A stretch of DNA of 64,000 bases from Arenibacter sp. F26102 (lineage in GTDB: Bacteria > Bacteroidota > Bacteroidia > Flavobacteriales > Flavobacteriaceae), in NCBI RefSeq assembly GCF_023015865.1, contig NZ_JALKBC010000004.1, positions 62,770 to 126,769 on the forward strand, given 5' to 3'. The position numbers and the translations under genes were made by a program. The notes under the pieces are model-generated. The model was not told where the DNA came from. It made no database searches and worked only from the letters and a program-made list of their open reading frames with translations. Shown here piece by piece: positions 16,382-20,204 of this stretch (position 1 is the first letter of the stretch; each line of letters begins with the position of its first letter).

Positions 16382-16691
16382 AGTTCTTATTAAGTTTCCT
16401 AATCCTGTCGCTAACTTTCTCAATTCCTGGTCGCTCACCAGTTTCAATATACCTTATGGCAATTGTCTTGCATGAGCTGCACCAACCTTTTAAAATCACA
16501 TCATTTAAATTGCTGATATAACTTTTATAATTGACCAGTTTTTTATTTTCATCTCCACAATCACAAAAGAAGGAGTGCGTAAAAAGATGGATGTCTTCTT
16601 CCCAGGAATCACCAAACATCAAACGGAGTTGAAATGGTCCGATTTCAACTTCATCCTCTTGTGGGATATGTTCAGTTCTTTTTTTAGCCAA
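16380..16691 (-). CDS. Hypothetical protein with four cysteines (possible zinc site)
   Basis: This 103-residue soluble protein carries FFCDCGDENKK near residue 42 and WCSSCKT near residue 70, a CxC plus CxxC set suggesting a zinc ribbon or knuckle. Start chosen is TTG at 16691: no in-frame ATG precedes, and AAAGGA lies 6-8 bases upstream. Notably, the AAAGGA belongs to the recurring 18-bp motif at 16697-16714. Family not recognised. Confidence 0.55.
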   Translation of the reverse strand: MAKKRTEHIPQEDEVEIGPFQLRLMFGDSWEEDIHLFTHSFFCDCGDENKKLVNYKSYISNLNDVILKGWCSSCKTIAIRYIETGERPGIEKVSDRIRKLNKN

Positions 16692-16696
16692 TTTTC

Positions 16697-16714
16697 ATCC
16701 TTTATTTGAACTTT
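16697..16714 (-). repeat. Stop-codon-linked 18-bp motif
   Basis: Consensus copy, 35 bp after the stop of the Abi gene and 5 bp before the TTG start of the next gene, for which its AAAGGA can act as ribosome binding site. Confidence 0.6.
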
Positions 16715-16749
16715 ATAAATTTTGGTGTCGGTGTATTAAATAGTTAAAA

Positions 16750-17664
16750 TTATTGTTGCCAAAGTGGTTCTTTTATCCAATCCGGTTTCATGCCTAAAGC
16801 ATCAGGGTCAACATTTAGGTATTTGGAAAATAAACTATCTAACCGACCAGTAAAATCATTTTTAGGTTGAATGATGTTTATTAAATATTTCATGAGGCAC
16901 AGATGTACATAGAGCTTGCTGAATTCATGCTGCTTGGGGATGTTTTCTACTGCTGTTATCCAAGGGTGCGGTGGTTTAGACAATAACTTTACCGTTCCTG
17001 GTAAATTCCTATTCCAAAGTCTTGAATGGTGTGCGCAATAGTTTCTAAATTGGGCAATGGATTGTAACCAACTCGGCAAATAGGTATGGTTTACCGCCCC
17101 TAATTCTTGTGCTATAACATCTTTGGATCTAACAGTTGGTTTTAAGTTACCATACAATTTGGATAAAGCTCCAAAACTGGTCTGCTCCAAAGCCTTCCAT
17201 GCTGGCGGAAAACGCTTGTCATCTTTATGGTTTTTAAAATGGTTTTTTATGGTAATATCCTTAGATCTTTCCAATTCTTCTTGCAGGTTGGACAAGGTCT
17301 TGACCAACGCCATACTATCGTTAAACAATTCAAAATTTTGAAACCACCAAGGGTCAATTTCATGCGAAAGATGGTAAATAAGTTTGGTGCGTAAACTAAT
17401 TTCAATTTTTTCTATTACATCGAATAGTAGTAATCGTAATTCAGCATCAAAATTATAGAGTGCAATAACATCTTTAAACTTGCTATTAGGTTTAAATATA
17501 TGCCGTTCTTTATCTGATTGCATCACATACCAATACTCGCCTAAACGGTAATAACTGATATTGGATAGATATTTTCCGGCAAGTTGAGGGTTAGGAATAT
17601 GCAAACCTCTTTGTTGAAGCTGCTCAATTTGCTCTATTATGGTAAGCGCCTTTTTGCTGAACAT
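16750..17664 (-). CDS. Abi_2 (AbiD/AbiF) family abortive-infection protein
   Basis: The 304-residue protein follows the Abi_2 plan: an N-terminal AbiD/F helical region (QLAGKYLSNISYYRLGEYWY), a central IEKIEISLRTKLIYHLSH, and a HEPN-type end with the Rx4-6H RNase-like motif RNYCAHHSRLWNR near residue 210. AbiD/AbiF proteins stop phage growth, probably by RNA cleavage. A structured non-coding transcript is inferred immediately upstream, as known for AbiF genes. The neighbouring resolvase and toxin-antitoxin genes fit a defence-rich cargo zone. Confidence 0.88.
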   Translation of the reverse strand: MFSKKALTIIEQIEQLQQRGLHIPNPQLAGKYLSNISYYRLGEYWYVMQSDKERHIFKPNSKFKDVIALYNFDAELRLLLFDVIEKIEISLRTKLIYHLSHEIDPWWFQNFELFNDSMALVKTLSNLQEELERSKDITIKNHFKNHKDDKRFPPAWKALEQTSFGALSKLYGNLKPTVRSKDVIAQELGAVNHTYLPSWLQSIAQFRNYCAHHSRLWNRNLPGTVKLLSKPPHPWITAVENIPKQHEFSKLYVHLCLMKYLINIIQPKNDFTGRLDSLFSKYLNVDPDALGMKPDWIKEPLWQQ

Positions 17665-17688
17665 CTTTATTGTTGAATTGTATTACTA

Positions 17689-17762
17689 AAAACAAAAAGG
17701 GCCATAAAGCAAAAGACACACCCTGGGACGCTGTTCTTAAGGGTAGCGTGGTGTGTACTGTT
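17689..17762 (-). ncRNA. Candidate AbiF-type structured RNA upstream of the Abi_2 gene
   Basis: Reading the minus strand, a TAGTTTTG promoter box (17775-17768) is followed by a folded segment. An outer stem ACACACC (17756-17750) pairs with GGTGTGT (17722-17716). An inner 5-bp stem ACGCT/AGCGT (17749-17745 and 17732-17728) is stacked on it, with a 12-base loop and a 5-base one-sided bulge. A tail ends in GGCCCTTTTTGTTTTT (to 17689). It lies 25 bp before the abi start codon. A conserved RNA preceding abiF genes is described in the RNA-motif literature; membership here is inferred from position and fold only. Confidence 0.55.
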
Positions 17763-17767
17763 ATGTA

Positions 17768-17775
17768 CAAAACTA
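17768..17775 (-). promoter_or_regulatory. -7 promoter box (TAGTTTTG) for the Abi ncRNA
   Basis: TAnnTTTG consensus on the minus strand; transcription would begin about 5-7 bases later, directly at the hairpin. Confidence 0.5.
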
Positions 17776-17892
17776 CATATTTTACTACTTATTGTATTAC
17801 TTTTTAACATATTTTATTTTAAGACTATTCAAACATCTATTGAAACAAATCATTTTATTGGTTTTGGTATGCTCTAATTTACTGGATTTTTC

Positions 17893-17910
17893 ATCCTTTA
17901 TTTGAACTTT
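17893..17910 (-). repeat. Stop-codon-linked 18-bp motif
   Basis: Consensus copy overlapping the TAA stop (17909-17911) of the 84-residue gene. Confidence 0.65.
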
Positions 17911-18163
17911 ATTGAAGAAGCACACTTCGAAGTTTCCCGCGTTGCAACTTATCAAAGAGTTTGGGGTCATGCCTATAATACTTAATACTTTCCTGATACT
18001 CTATAATATACAAAATTTCACAATTGATGTGATCTTCACTTTTGGCTGAATCATATTCGGCCTCATTAACTAAATAAAAATTCTCTTGCTTTCTATCCAT
18101 AACTAAATTTTCTCCCTTCCCAATAAACTCAGTTGGAGTAAAATCTTTTGGTTTGTTTTCCAT
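17909..18163 (-). CDS. Hypothetical protein, 84 residues
   Basis: Family not recognised. It is a soluble protein with an acidic first half (YLVNEAEYDSAKSEDHINCE) and a basic C-terminus (LFDKLQRGKLRSVLLQ). Starts at ATG 18163, preceded by AAGGAAG as ribosome binding site. It lies 22 bp after the 54-residue gene, with a variant of the 18-bp motif between, and its own stop overlaps a consensus copy. Confidence 0.5.
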   Translation of the reverse strand: MENKPKDFTPTEFIGKGENLVMDRKQENFYLVNEAEYDSAKSEDHINCEILYIIEYQESIKYYRHDPKLFDKLQRGKLRSVLLQ

Positions 18164-18180
18164 CTTCCTTGTAATAATAT

Positions 18181-18198
18181 ATCCTTTAATTAGACTCT
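18181..18198 (-). repeat. Stop-codon-linked motif, variant copy
   Basis: The minus strand reads AGAGTCTAATTAAAGGAT and contains the TAA stop of the 54-residue gene at 18186. Confidence 0.5.
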
Positions 18199-18350
18199 AG
18201 TTTAGAATTAATTTCTTCCTCAAGCATATAAGACCAACCTAATATCTCTTTAGCTTTAGATGACGTGTTTGTGCCGTTTCCTTCATTTAAAACATCAATG
18301 TCTTTAGCGTTGTTTCTAATATCTTTCAGTAATAGAACTATTCTATCCAT
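18186..18350 (-). CDS. Small hypothetical protein, 54 residues
   Basis: The frame runs from ATG 18350 to TAA 18186, encoding a helical, charged protein (MDRIVLLLKDIRNNAKDIDV, then SSKAKEILGWSYMLEEEIN). AAAGGATAATT precedes the ATG; that AAAGGA is part of a motif copy at 18355-18372. The gene is flanked on both sides by motif copies, making it the clearest single-gene cassette-like unit in the window. Family not recognised. Confidence 0.5.
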   Translation of the reverse strand: MDRIVLLLKDIRNNAKDIDVLNEGNGTNTSSKAKEILGWSYMLEEEINSKLESN

Positions 18351-18354
18351 AATT

Positions 18355-18372
18355 ATCCTTTATTTAAACTTT
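18355..18372 (-). repeat. Stop-codon-linked 18-bp motif
   Basis: The minus strand reads AAAGTTTAAATAAAGGAT, one base from consensus. It starts 2 bp after the stop of the TPR gene and ends 4 bp before the ATG of the next gene. Confidence 0.6.
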
Positions 18373-18374
18373 GA

Positions 18375-20204
18375 TTAATTTATAATCATCAATTTCTCTA
18401 TTAAGTTCTTGAATTCTGTGGTTTCGCGGATAGGATTTAATAACTCTTCTGTACGCATCCAATAAATATCATCATAACCCATCGAAATTGACTTTTCTAA
18501 GTATCTGATCGCTTGGTCATTTTTCATTTTTAAAACATAGTAACAAGCCATATTTCTATACATCCAACTATTATTTTCATCAAGTAATTTCGATTTCTCT
18601 AGATCTTTAAAAGCATCAGTTATCCTATTTAGTTTTAAGAAACTAAATGCTCTATTATTGTAGGTAAAAGCATCGGTCGAATCCAATTCTATTGCTTTAT
18701 CAAAAGCCGAAATTGATTGCTTATATTCTTTCATTTCGCTAAATATGATACCCATTTGACCATAATTTTTAGAATGATTGGGGTATAAGTAACTTGCTTT
18801 TTTTATGGTTACAATAGCTTTTTCAAATTGTTTATTAAGAGTATACACTCCTGAAAGATTATTTAGGGTAAGTATATCATTTGGTTCTATTTTAATAGCC
18901 ATTAGAAAATCTTTAATACTTAAATCGTACTGTTTGAGATAAGCATATGCCGCTCCTCTATTAATATAACCTTTAGACTCTTGAGGACTTAAAGAAATAA
19001 AGGTGCTGAGTTCTTTTATGGCCTTCTCATAATCCATTAGTTGATAATATAAATTTCCCTTACTAAAATAAGTTCCGCTTAGTGAAGGTGCCAAGGAAAT
19101 AGCCATGTCATAATCCTTTAATGCCTTTAAGTTTTCATTTAAATTATTGTATGCCGCCCCCCGATTACTATAATAAACCGCATCGTTTGGATTCAACGAA
19201 ATTGCTTTGTTAAAATCTTTTAGACTCTTTTCATATTGTTTCAATTCGCCATACGTTGCTCCTCTATTTTGATAAAATCCACTTTCTTCGGGATATAATA
19301 AAATTGCCTCGTTAAAAACTTTTAAAGCCTTTTCATTTAGGCCTAATTCAAAATATGTTTGAGCAATTCCTGAGTACCGGTCTTTCCTTCGGGAAAGCTC
19401 TTTAATGGTTATGTACTTCTCACCGTTTACAGTTTTAGTTCCCAACTGCAATAAATCCCTCGCATTTGTCAATATTTCATCTAATTCCAAAAATGCATCA
19501 TTTGACTTATCGGCTTTAAGATTAATTAATGCTTTCGTCCATTTTTTCAAGGATAAGGAATCTGTTTTAAATAAACCCTTTTCTATATCTATAGTATTAG
19601 TAGAAGTATAATTCGAATCGTGTTTGAACGACTTAACCTCAATTACAGGGACTGCCTTAGAAGTAACGTGGGGGGATATATTATACCTAAAGGAAAGTTC
19701 AGCTCCTTCACAATCTGCCTTAACATTTCTAGCTAGTCCATAAATAACTAAATCAGCATTATGTCTACTCAGAATTTTCTTTGCATCATTCCTACTTCTA
19801 GGAGGCATTATACTATCTATATATTGGGTATTCAAGTTAATGGGTAAACTATCATTTGCAGAAATGTTATTCAAGTTTTCCTGAATTGCTCTACCAATAC
19901 AACTTGTTTCTTTTTGGGCAATATAGTCCTCAAAATTTAGTATAAGCACATTAAATGAAGTGGAATCATTTGAATTAAATATTGGTTTATAATGGGGTTC
20001 TATTAATAATTGTCTGTCTGTGGATACGTCCGTCGATCCGATTATTGCATAAAGTCCAGGTTTTATTAAATCTTGATACAATCCAGCTATTGTGCCAAGT
20101 ACAACGACAATCCCCCACCATTGTAATTTGTGCCTACGACAGAATATAAATCTCGTTGAATTCTTACATCTTTCTATATTCCTAGTAATTCCACAACATC
20201 TCAT
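18375..20204 (-). CDS. Membrane-anchored TPR protein with an N-terminal Cys/His cluster
   Basis: The 609-residue protein starts with a small Cys/His motif (RCCGITRNIERCKN then FCRRH), like the DUF5763-type zinc domain. One transmembrane helix follows (about 29-52), then an alpha/beta domain (residues 80-230, VLILNFEDYIAQ and ADLVIYGLARNV), then about nine tetratricopeptide repeats from residue 285 to the end (YQNRGATYGELKQYEKSLKD and similar). The start codon overlaps the recombinase stop by 4 bp. The repeats imply a protein-interaction platform; the function is unknown. A motif copy directly follows the stop. Confidence 0.75.
   Translation of the reverse strand: MRCCGITRNIERCKNSTRFIFCRRHKLQWWGIVVVLGTIAGLYQDLIKPGLYAIIGSTDVSTDRQLLIEPHYKPIFNSNDSTSFNVLILNFEDYIAQKETSCIGRAIQENLNNISANDSLPINLNTQYIDSIMPPRSRNDAKKILSRHNADLVIYGLARNVKADCEGAELSFRYNISPHVTSKAVPVIEVKSFKHDSNYTSTNTIDIEKGLFKTDSLSLKKWTKALINLKADKSNDAFLELDEILTNARDLLQLGTKTVNGEKYITIKELSRRKDRYSGIAQTYFELGLNEKALKVFNEAILLYPEESGFYQNRGATYGELKQYEKSLKDFNKAISLNPNDAVYYSNRGAAYNNLNENLKALKDYDMAISLAPSLSGTYFSKGNLYYQLMDYEKAIKELSTFISLSPQESKGYINRGAAYAYLKQYDLSIKDFLMAIKIEPNDILTLNNLSGVYTLNKQFEKAIVTIKKASYLYPNHSKNYGQMGIIFSEMKEYKQSISAFDKAIELDSTDAFTYNNRAFSFLKLNRITDAFKDLEKSKLLDENNSWMYRNMACYYVLKMKNDQAIRYLEKSISMGYDDIYWMRTEELLNPIRETTEFKNLIEKLMIIN

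Follow-up and report, generated by a model that had tools for sequence, protein, structure and literature searches.

Two pairs of an AbiF protein and a small RNA are the described systems closest to the locus presented here. PbAbiF-AbiFr originates from Prevotellaceae (PDB 8vz6; Zilberzwige-Tal et al., Cell 2025, cited via the accessible parts of PMC12373285 and PMC12737573), and RCd22-AbiFCd belongs to C. difficile phi027. For both systems, binding of the RNA to the protein is described in the accessible parts of the same two sources, and PMC12373285 names there the R and the H of the HEPN motif as the catalytic pair (R210/H215 in PbAbiF, R202/H207 in AbiFCd). AbiF is furthermore held to be ancestral to Cas13 in the accessible portions of PMC12165695 and PMC12737573.

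The window, i.e., the whole stretch of 64,000 nucleotides of Arenibacter sp. F26102 DNA that was analyzed, carries a related locus. Judging from its sequence and from the analogy to these systems, we consider it very probable that the locus encodes an AbiF-type, type III-like toxin-antitoxin pair, and that toxin-less copies of the RNA, which occur in phages, could neutralize AbiF. The locus comprises the following features:

17768-17775, minus strand: TAGTTTTG, the TAnnTTTG promoter box before the RNA; the same box is found in other loci
17702-17763, minus strand: putative abiF-like antitoxin RNA, extent as given by model R1 (85.2 bits, with covariation)
17750-17756, minus strand: helix 1, 5′ strand ACACACC, 7 bp, pairing with 17716-17722; double changes in five of seven pairs
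17745-17748, minus strand: helix 2, 5′ strand CGCT, 4 bp, pairing with 17729-17732; nearly invariant
17733-17744, minus strand: apical loop ACCCTTAAGAAC, 12 nt, conserved except for 3-4 positions
17729-17732, minus strand: helix 2, 3′ strand AGCG, partner of CGCT
17723-17728, minus strand: 3′ bulge TCCCAG, 6 nt, in size and place like the RF03085 bulge CAAAUC
17716-17722, minus strand: helix 1, 3′ strand GGTGTGT, partner of ACACACC
17706-17715, minus strand: T-rich tail CTTTTGCTTT, a probable terminator tail judged by the T fraction after helix 1
16750-17664, minus strand: abiF gene for an AbiF-type HEPN RNase of 304 aa (Pfam, PADLOC, PDB sequence and fold matches)
17029-17046, minus strand: HEPN motif RNYCAH, residues 207-212, from an alignment of 46 proteins

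The 304-aa protein belongs to one Pfam family only, Abi_2 (PF07751), which it matches with 186.3 bits at a curated cut-off of 25.6, and it was labeled AbiD by PADLOC (242.6 bits). Its closest solved relative in a sequence search is PbAbiF with ncRNA (PDB 8vz6_A, E 1.1e-54). The same chain was the top PDB fold match (TM 0.87, E 3.4e-19, 36% identity) of an AlphaFold2 model based on 46 sequences (pLDDT 91.7, pTM 0.89), and besides 8vz6, this fold search did not reveal any entry at E <=0.001. R207, N208, A211 and H212 of RNYCAH are invariant across the 46 proteins, and the R-polar-xxx-H motif was present in all 106 Abi proteins collected. The Abi_2 score, the RNYCAH motif and the PbAbiF-like predicted fold corroborate the HEPN Abi_2 gene that the initial annotation had proposed. 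By sequence and predicted fold the protein is a HEPN ribonuclease, whose activity may be assumed from PbAbiF and AbiFCd.

With PbAbiF it shares the fold, the Rx4H motif of the HEPN domain and an RNA in front of the gene, the comparison with 8vz6 referring to the protein chain and not to the RNA chain. The RNAs differ in subtype: the nearest of the fetched relatives, judged by eye (L226), has an RNA of the RF03085 type (59.8 bits), whereas that of the window is of the R1 subtype. Like RCd22-AbiFCd, the window combines an Abi_2 protein with an upstream RNA under its own promoter, and the read-through into the toxin gene described for RCd22-AbiFCd is also proposed here; in RCd22, however, the RF03085 motif occurs twice and the terminator is a separate element, in contrast to one hairpin directly abutting its tail and lacking an RF03085 match in the window (accessible parts of PMC12373285). 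Classical type III systems (ToxIN, CptIN, TenpIN) possess tandem RNA repeats, whereas the window contains a single R1 match above 12 bits. CRISPR-Cas13 comprises two HEPN domains and a repeat-spacer array, compared with one Abi_2 protein of 304 aa and a single hairpin without array at the locus.

The box in front of the RNA, TAnnTTTG, is what we take to be the Bacteroidota-type -7 promoter consensus. The predicted start of the RNA lies near 17762/17763 and its predicted length is about 74 nt; box and tail suggest roughly 58-70 nt, and the hairpin RNA spans about 17763-17706. The R1 score of 85.2 bits includes the advantage that the window's own copy is among the 61 training sequences of the model. 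One unpaired A separates helix 1 from helix 2, the observed pairs do not require a pseudoknot of the ToxI type, and only one R1 match in the window exceeds 12 bits. Hairpin and T-rich tail probably double as a terminator in hosts; a terminator scan did not call one at the tail of the window RNA. Single-sequence folding gave z-scores of -2.74 (53-nt core), -0.59 (74 nt) and -0.83 (83 nt), and of -0.35 and -0.57 for 111-nt stretches. Moreover, paired hairpins of the same layout, with G-U pairs allowed, occur 33 times on the two strands of the 64-kb window. Folding alone was thus rejected as proof of an RNA, as it fails to set this hairpin apart from chance.

Homologues of the protein were detected in 44 of 395 Bacteroidota genomes. 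We compiled 108 loci with AbiF homologues (30 from the 395 genomes of the phylum, 77 from genome contigs and one from a virus contig), which take in the gene of the window itself, some that are broken, the duplicate L105/L108 and many close relatives. The RNA lies ahead of the AbiF gene in 105 of them, 102 of which were recognized by pattern (some via copied strings), the others being L006, L010 and L012. The three loci without RNA are L085, where the gene starts at the contig edge, and L102 and L107, which are truncated and match from residue 67. From 79 distinct RNA sequences, 61 were aligned, leaving out four of the RF03085 type, five with an enlarged loop, two Prevotella variants and seven near-duplicates. 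The mean column identity of this alignment is 79%. Pairing is kept in 99.9% of 671 pair cells, and double changes, found in six pairs, affect 54 cells compared with 12.5 in shuffles. Sliding of the partner strand lowered pairing to 58.9% at most, and RNAalifold returned the identical structure. Covariation resides in helix 1, while helix 2 is almost invariant, so that its pairing is not proven by covariation. TAnnTTTG was found 7-8 nt ahead of the RNA in 72 of 101 loci, as against 1.25 per control window of equal width. Within the 12 nt past helix 1 the T fraction is 0.69 (102 host loci), compared with 0.38 in the remaining spacer, and the RNA precedes abiF by 17-102 nt (median 47, 82 loci). 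Promoter box and two-stem hairpin with large loop, bulge and T-rich tail, which had been noticed in the window alone, were thus all located and are conserved across loci. On account of conservation, covariation and the fixed promoter distance, we concluded from these alignments that the window RNA is real. That the hairpin arose by chance, as the unremarkable folding and the 33 similar layouts might suggest, is refuted by covariation as well as by conservation and promoter distance, and its probability is negligible.

In two loci (L182, L187), one and the same AbiF gene is preceded by two RNAs of the R1 type, spaced about 600 nt apart. Near-identical AbiF proteins are combined with another variant of the RNA in L104 (36.5 bits), L105, L106 and L108, loci of several Prevotellaceae and of a contig predicted to be viral.

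The public abiF RNA model RF03085 did not match the 64-kb window at its gathering score (37 bits). At E 10 there was still no match in 16500-18500 or in the whole genome, and no RNA family was called in the window by Rfam. The check by covariance model that had been recommended in the initial annotation therefore failed with RF03085 even at this threshold. RF03085 does match the RNAs that precede more distantly related AbiF genes (L226 59.8, L029 57.4, L022 53.9 and L013 39.4 bits), which points to a limited reach of the model. Its score sinks below the cut-off of 37 as the AbiF genes approach that of the window (L015 35.5, L012 34.0, L009 23.5 bits). The corresponding R1 scores are 58.8 (L009), 40.8 (L012), 22.7 (L226), 21.1 (L015) and 18.5 bits (L029), and L012 is matched by both models (34.0 and 40.8 bits with RF03085 and R1, respectively). 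The window RNA and RF03085 have in common helix 1, the unpaired A, helix 2, the loop, the 6-nt bulge and the place in front of Abi_2 genes, but differ in the sequences of loop and bulge, which are CUCUCAACGAU and CAAAUC in RF03085 and ACCCnUnAGAAC and UCCCAG in the window. Because of its score under the cut-off, the window RNA was not filed as a member of RF03085. The same layout, together with loci that both models score or that fall between the two, makes a divergent abiF-type RNA of the R1 subtype, outside RF03085, the best reading of the sequences. In a tree of 53 proteins the RNA types interleave among the entries that have an RNA, the R1 label needing five changes instead of one and the RF label three; the inner order of this tree is unsure, since long branches meet there. 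The window subtype may already be covered by the covariance models that Zilberzwige-Tal et al. made for AbiF, which are named in the accessible part of PMC12804078.

The PbAbiF-ncRNA relative and the abiF RNA layout support the suggestion made at the outset that the locus is an RNA-guarded HEPN defense or toxin-antitoxin pair. In such a pair, the Bacteroidota-type promoter would start a short RNA near 17763, most transcripts would stop at the T-rich tail, and some would read through into abiF. By analogy with PbAbiF-ncRNA and RCd22, the RNA probably binds and blocks the AbiF dimer. Infection or loss of the locus could upset the RNA supply, whereupon free AbiF would cut cellular RNA and growth would stop.

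The distribution of toxin and RNA in the 395 Bacteroidota genomes is asymmetric. R1 identified 66 places with at least 40 bits, 27 of them before an intact AbiF gene (including two second copies about 600 nt further upstream), ten before a broken one and 29 before none. Among these 29, four are located at contig ends, four are accompanied by AbiF remnants (tblastn) and 21 are orphans, a count that includes L205, whose sole AbiF-like match is 25% identical (E 0.010), as well as many RNAs from one genus and some near-identical pairs. Conversely, all 32 intact AbiF genes have an RNA, found by R1 with at least 40 bits in 25 cases and by RF03085 over the cut-off in four; that of G373 reached 35.5 bits with RF03085, just under the cut-off, and those of G078 and G384 were recognized by eye only. 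A broken AbiF gene (G213:C123) showed an R1 match of 36.8 bits, and three AbiF fragments (L234, L235, L237) were without RNA. Weak Abi_2 matches of 33-35 bits were obtained in G161:C115, G091 and G373:C2. With 21 of 66 RNAs being orphans and none of the 32 AbiF genes lacking an RNA, it appears that the RNA can outlive the toxin, whereas the toxin was never seen alone. In evolutionary terms, this asymmetry would be the pattern expected of a toxin that is not tolerated without its antitoxin. A sister Abi_2 clade of five genes (L219-L223, about 292 aa), in which RNxxxH is kept, has no abiF-type RNA upstream; it splits off at 100/100 in the 53-protein tree, which includes four of the five. R1 matches below 40 bits in the 395 genomes were discarded; the ones that were read (L215-L218) are simple hairpins followed by T tails and do not resemble the RNA.

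That orphan RNAs guard an AbiF encoded elsewhere in the genome was considered and rejected for G053, G284, G311 and G303, as none of these belongs to the 44 genomes in which Abi_2 was detected. The neighbors of ten orphan RNAs were subjected to a Pfam run. A DarT gene begins 36 nt downstream of L195, and N6_N4 DNA methylase genes are located 42-50 nt downstream of L202, L204 and L205. L188 lies shortly upstream of a gene for a helicase with PLD domain, L190 and L196 shortly upstream of AAA ATPase genes. G053, for which no Abi_2 is listed, has two different abiF-type RNAs in tandem (L238, 6474-6592; 78.7 bits with R1 and 30.4 bits with RF03085). A TACTTTTG box precedes them, and they are part of a type I R-M operon, where they are flanked by an HTH gene and by hsdR. 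An orphan RNA that neighbors R-M genes in a bacterial genome is not necessarily an antitoxin.

RNAs of the R1 subtype were also found in viruses. IMG/VR, a collection of contigs predicted to be viral, many of them fragmentary, was searched with a pattern consisting of helix 2, loop and bulge and, of helix 1, only the innermost bases. It gave 38 matches, the reversed pattern none, and all 38 were scored at 33.4-87.9 bits by R1, which had been trained on host RNAs without viral copies. According to an HMM of the 106 Abi proteins, an AbiF gene follows the RNA in two cases (L246, L249), while in the remaining 36 none was detected in the searched stretch, which in two of them ends at the RNA, at the contig edge. 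Likewise, PF07751 at E 0.1 did not match any of 20 records searched whole (17 of the 36 and three isolate genomes). The 36 toxin-less copies correspond to 22 contexts. Among 197 PHROGs families, the 135 proteins around the RNA (35 of the 36 loci) matched terminases, portal, head protease, DnaB, UvsX and QueC. Blastn of the window RNA, and of a phage copy, against the isolated phages of INPHARED yielded no match; against plasmids, the window RNA had a single weak match, in Priestia megaterium (81%, E 9e-3). A search of viral contigs using the AbiF protein as query disclosed a single locus, a copy of a Prevotella contig, and 83 INPHARED records, mostly Streptococcus, contain AbiF proteins.

Helix 1 varies widely in the phage copies, yet pairs in 99.3% of 286 cells. 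This comparison comprised the window RNA and 25 of the 36 copies; the omitted copies were six whose spacing differs, two that are truncated by an edge, and three duplicates. Double changes affect 29 cells compared with 7.3 in shuffles, but only three pairs exhibit them, as many as are reached in 244 of 500 shuffles. The column identity of these 26 RNAs is 75%. These values also bear on the proposal that the RNA is a guide and AbiF a miniature Cas13-like, RNA-guided nuclease, with loop or tail matching a target. An RNA-guided role has been raised, together with the descent of Cas13 from AbiF, in the accessible part of PMC12165695. However, with column identities of 79% (61 loci) and 75% (26 RNAs including phage copies) there is no spacer-like variable stretch, and a passage of the review PMC12948488 describes AbiF as devoid of RNA-targeting specificity. 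We regard a guide function as highly improbable.

If the RNA is an antitoxin, phages would hold its half of the pair alone. The copies, whose presence and place were observed, could neutralize AbiF in trans. The nearest precedent for such a mimic is pseudo-ToxI of phage PhiTE, likewise a phage-borne mimic of a type III antitoxin (accessible text of PMC3475682). It belongs to another toxin family, and the expansion of its repeats took place under selection in a single phage; the RNAs described here, by contrast, are single diverged copies spread over 22 contexts, ten of them beside tRNAs. An abiF RNA in a lytic phage is known from cyanophage S-CREM1 (51.6 bits as printed), where it is listed as an sRNA, with no anti-AbiF reading in the accessible part of PMC9964418.

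Nineteen of the 36 phage RNAs are situated within 100 nt of a tRNA on the same strand, all of them within 21 nt, whereas 2.18 would be expected from uniform random positions, a null model beside which phage small RNAs may favor tRNA regions anyway. They represent ten of the 22 context clusters (hand count), and 12 phage RNAs come after tRNA-Thr. The other 17 are located away from tRNAs, two of them with a visible TAnnTTTG-like box (L240, L274). After helix 1 the T fraction is 0.41 in 34 phage copies, compared with 0.69 in hosts. The weak tail suggests that phage copies are released by tRNA processing rather than by termination; such processing could free the copies lying near tRNA genes.

The tail is also relevant to the question of whether the hairpin acts solely in cis, as a leader that restrains abiF transcription by termination or attenuation and does not bind AbiF. 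A leader would fit the position of the RNA in the 5′ region of abiF (17-102 nt), the T-rich tail in hosts and the similar RNAs that precede R-M and other genes. A plain attenuator, however, needs no loop and bulge conserved down to 30% protein identity, and the phage copies lie in tRNA arrays without a downstream gene partner of this kind, have lost the tail (0.41 versus 0.69) and still keep loop, bulge and pairing. Moreover, PbAbiF and AbiFCd are bound by their RNAs, as stated in the accessible parts of PMC12373285 and PMC12737573. A function as leader only is therefore quite improbable.

Some of the phage contigs showed additional elements near the RNA. A second hairpin follows it in five contigs (L251, L252, L253, L275, L277); that of the first three resembles the Prevotella variant L104, and that of L275 and L277 gave a folding z of -3.55. 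A conserved hairpin with the loop TAGTTGCAAATG was seen after the RNA in L243, L244, L275, L276 and L277 (z -3.55 in L275 and L277). In contig L241, genes that look like those of a queuosine or preQ0 pathway are adjacent to the cluster of tRNA and RNA.

A pattern of the RF03085 type gave 63 matches in the viral set, two of them with AbiF. The reversed control gave five, indicating that some of the RF-type matches are due to chance. Helix 1 pairs at six of six positions in 42 of the 63, as against 41 of 1260 controls, and at just three of six in five matches, all from one context. Of 61 RF-type orphans, 20 lie within 100 nt of a tRNA, compared with 4.38 expected, and 16 of 18 RF-type sources submitted to Rfam exceeded the cut-off. 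Isolated phages harbor such RNAs as well: in Acj61 (RF03085 58.0 bits) the RNA is flanked by a hypothetical gene and one for a homing endonuclease, in CRP-143 (50.8 bits) by the genes for scaffold and capsid. Bacillus phage P59 contains an abiF-like hairpin, recognized by eye and under the cut-off, between tRNA-Asp and tRNA-Pro in an array of 15 tRNAs. A skipping-rope RNA (RF02924, 44.8 bits; L342 2428-2497) is located directly before this hairpin.

The phage copies might also be unrelated to AbiF and represent spacers of tRNA arrays, processing signals, regulators of phage RNA or traces of host recombination. Positions 6-8 nt from tRNA genes would suit a role in processing, and the five stretches matching the reversed pattern reveal that chance contributes to the RF-type matches. 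On the other hand, neither the loop and bulge of the AbiF type nor a covarying helix 1 would be required of a spacer, and the same type of RNA occurs outside of tRNA arrays, in 17 of the 36 phage copies and in Acj61 and CRP-143. We consider an origin of this kind rather unlikely. We are inclined, with some reserve, to the view that AbiF antitoxin RNAs are regular phage cargo, carried without toxin and tail beside tRNAs, as part of a combined answer to HEPN RNases. Helix 1 would have been rewritten in them while loop and bulge were kept, some copies being joined by a second AbiF-like hairpin. With the same reserve, the phage RNA would block the nuclease and the phage tRNAs would replace those that have been cut, and the bacterial RNAs before HsdR, DNA methylase, DarT and AAA_21 genes would be relics of antidotes or leaders sensing AbiF.

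An 18-nt repeat, AAAGTTCAAATAAAGGAT, is present seven times in the window between 4651 and 18372 (five exact copies and two with one mismatch), always on the minus strand. It occurs nowhere else in the 5.4-Mb genome and was absent from the loci of other genomes. Two copies (16697-16714 and 17893-17910) flank the abiF unit, and others bound further small genes, resembling a gene-cassette array.

The host locus is of a known kind, but its RNA is missed by the public model RF03085. For toxin-less abiF RNAs spread in phages, often beside tRNAs, we did not find a description in open-licence PubMed Central, and they would represent a new form of RNA mimicry. If AbiF is the stock of Cas13, as proposed in the accessible parts of PMC12165695 and PMC12737573, the AbiF RNA would be a forerunner of the crRNA. 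The R1 subtype is strongly conserved in Bacteroidota, its loop and bulge likely being read by the protein while helix 1 is free. The findings raise the question of whether phages beat AbiF through RNA mimics kept near tRNA genes. If this is true, an abiF-type hairpin in a phage genome would mark an anti-AbiF function, and small orphan RNAs within the tRNA arrays of phages would be candidates for more RNA-based counter-defense.
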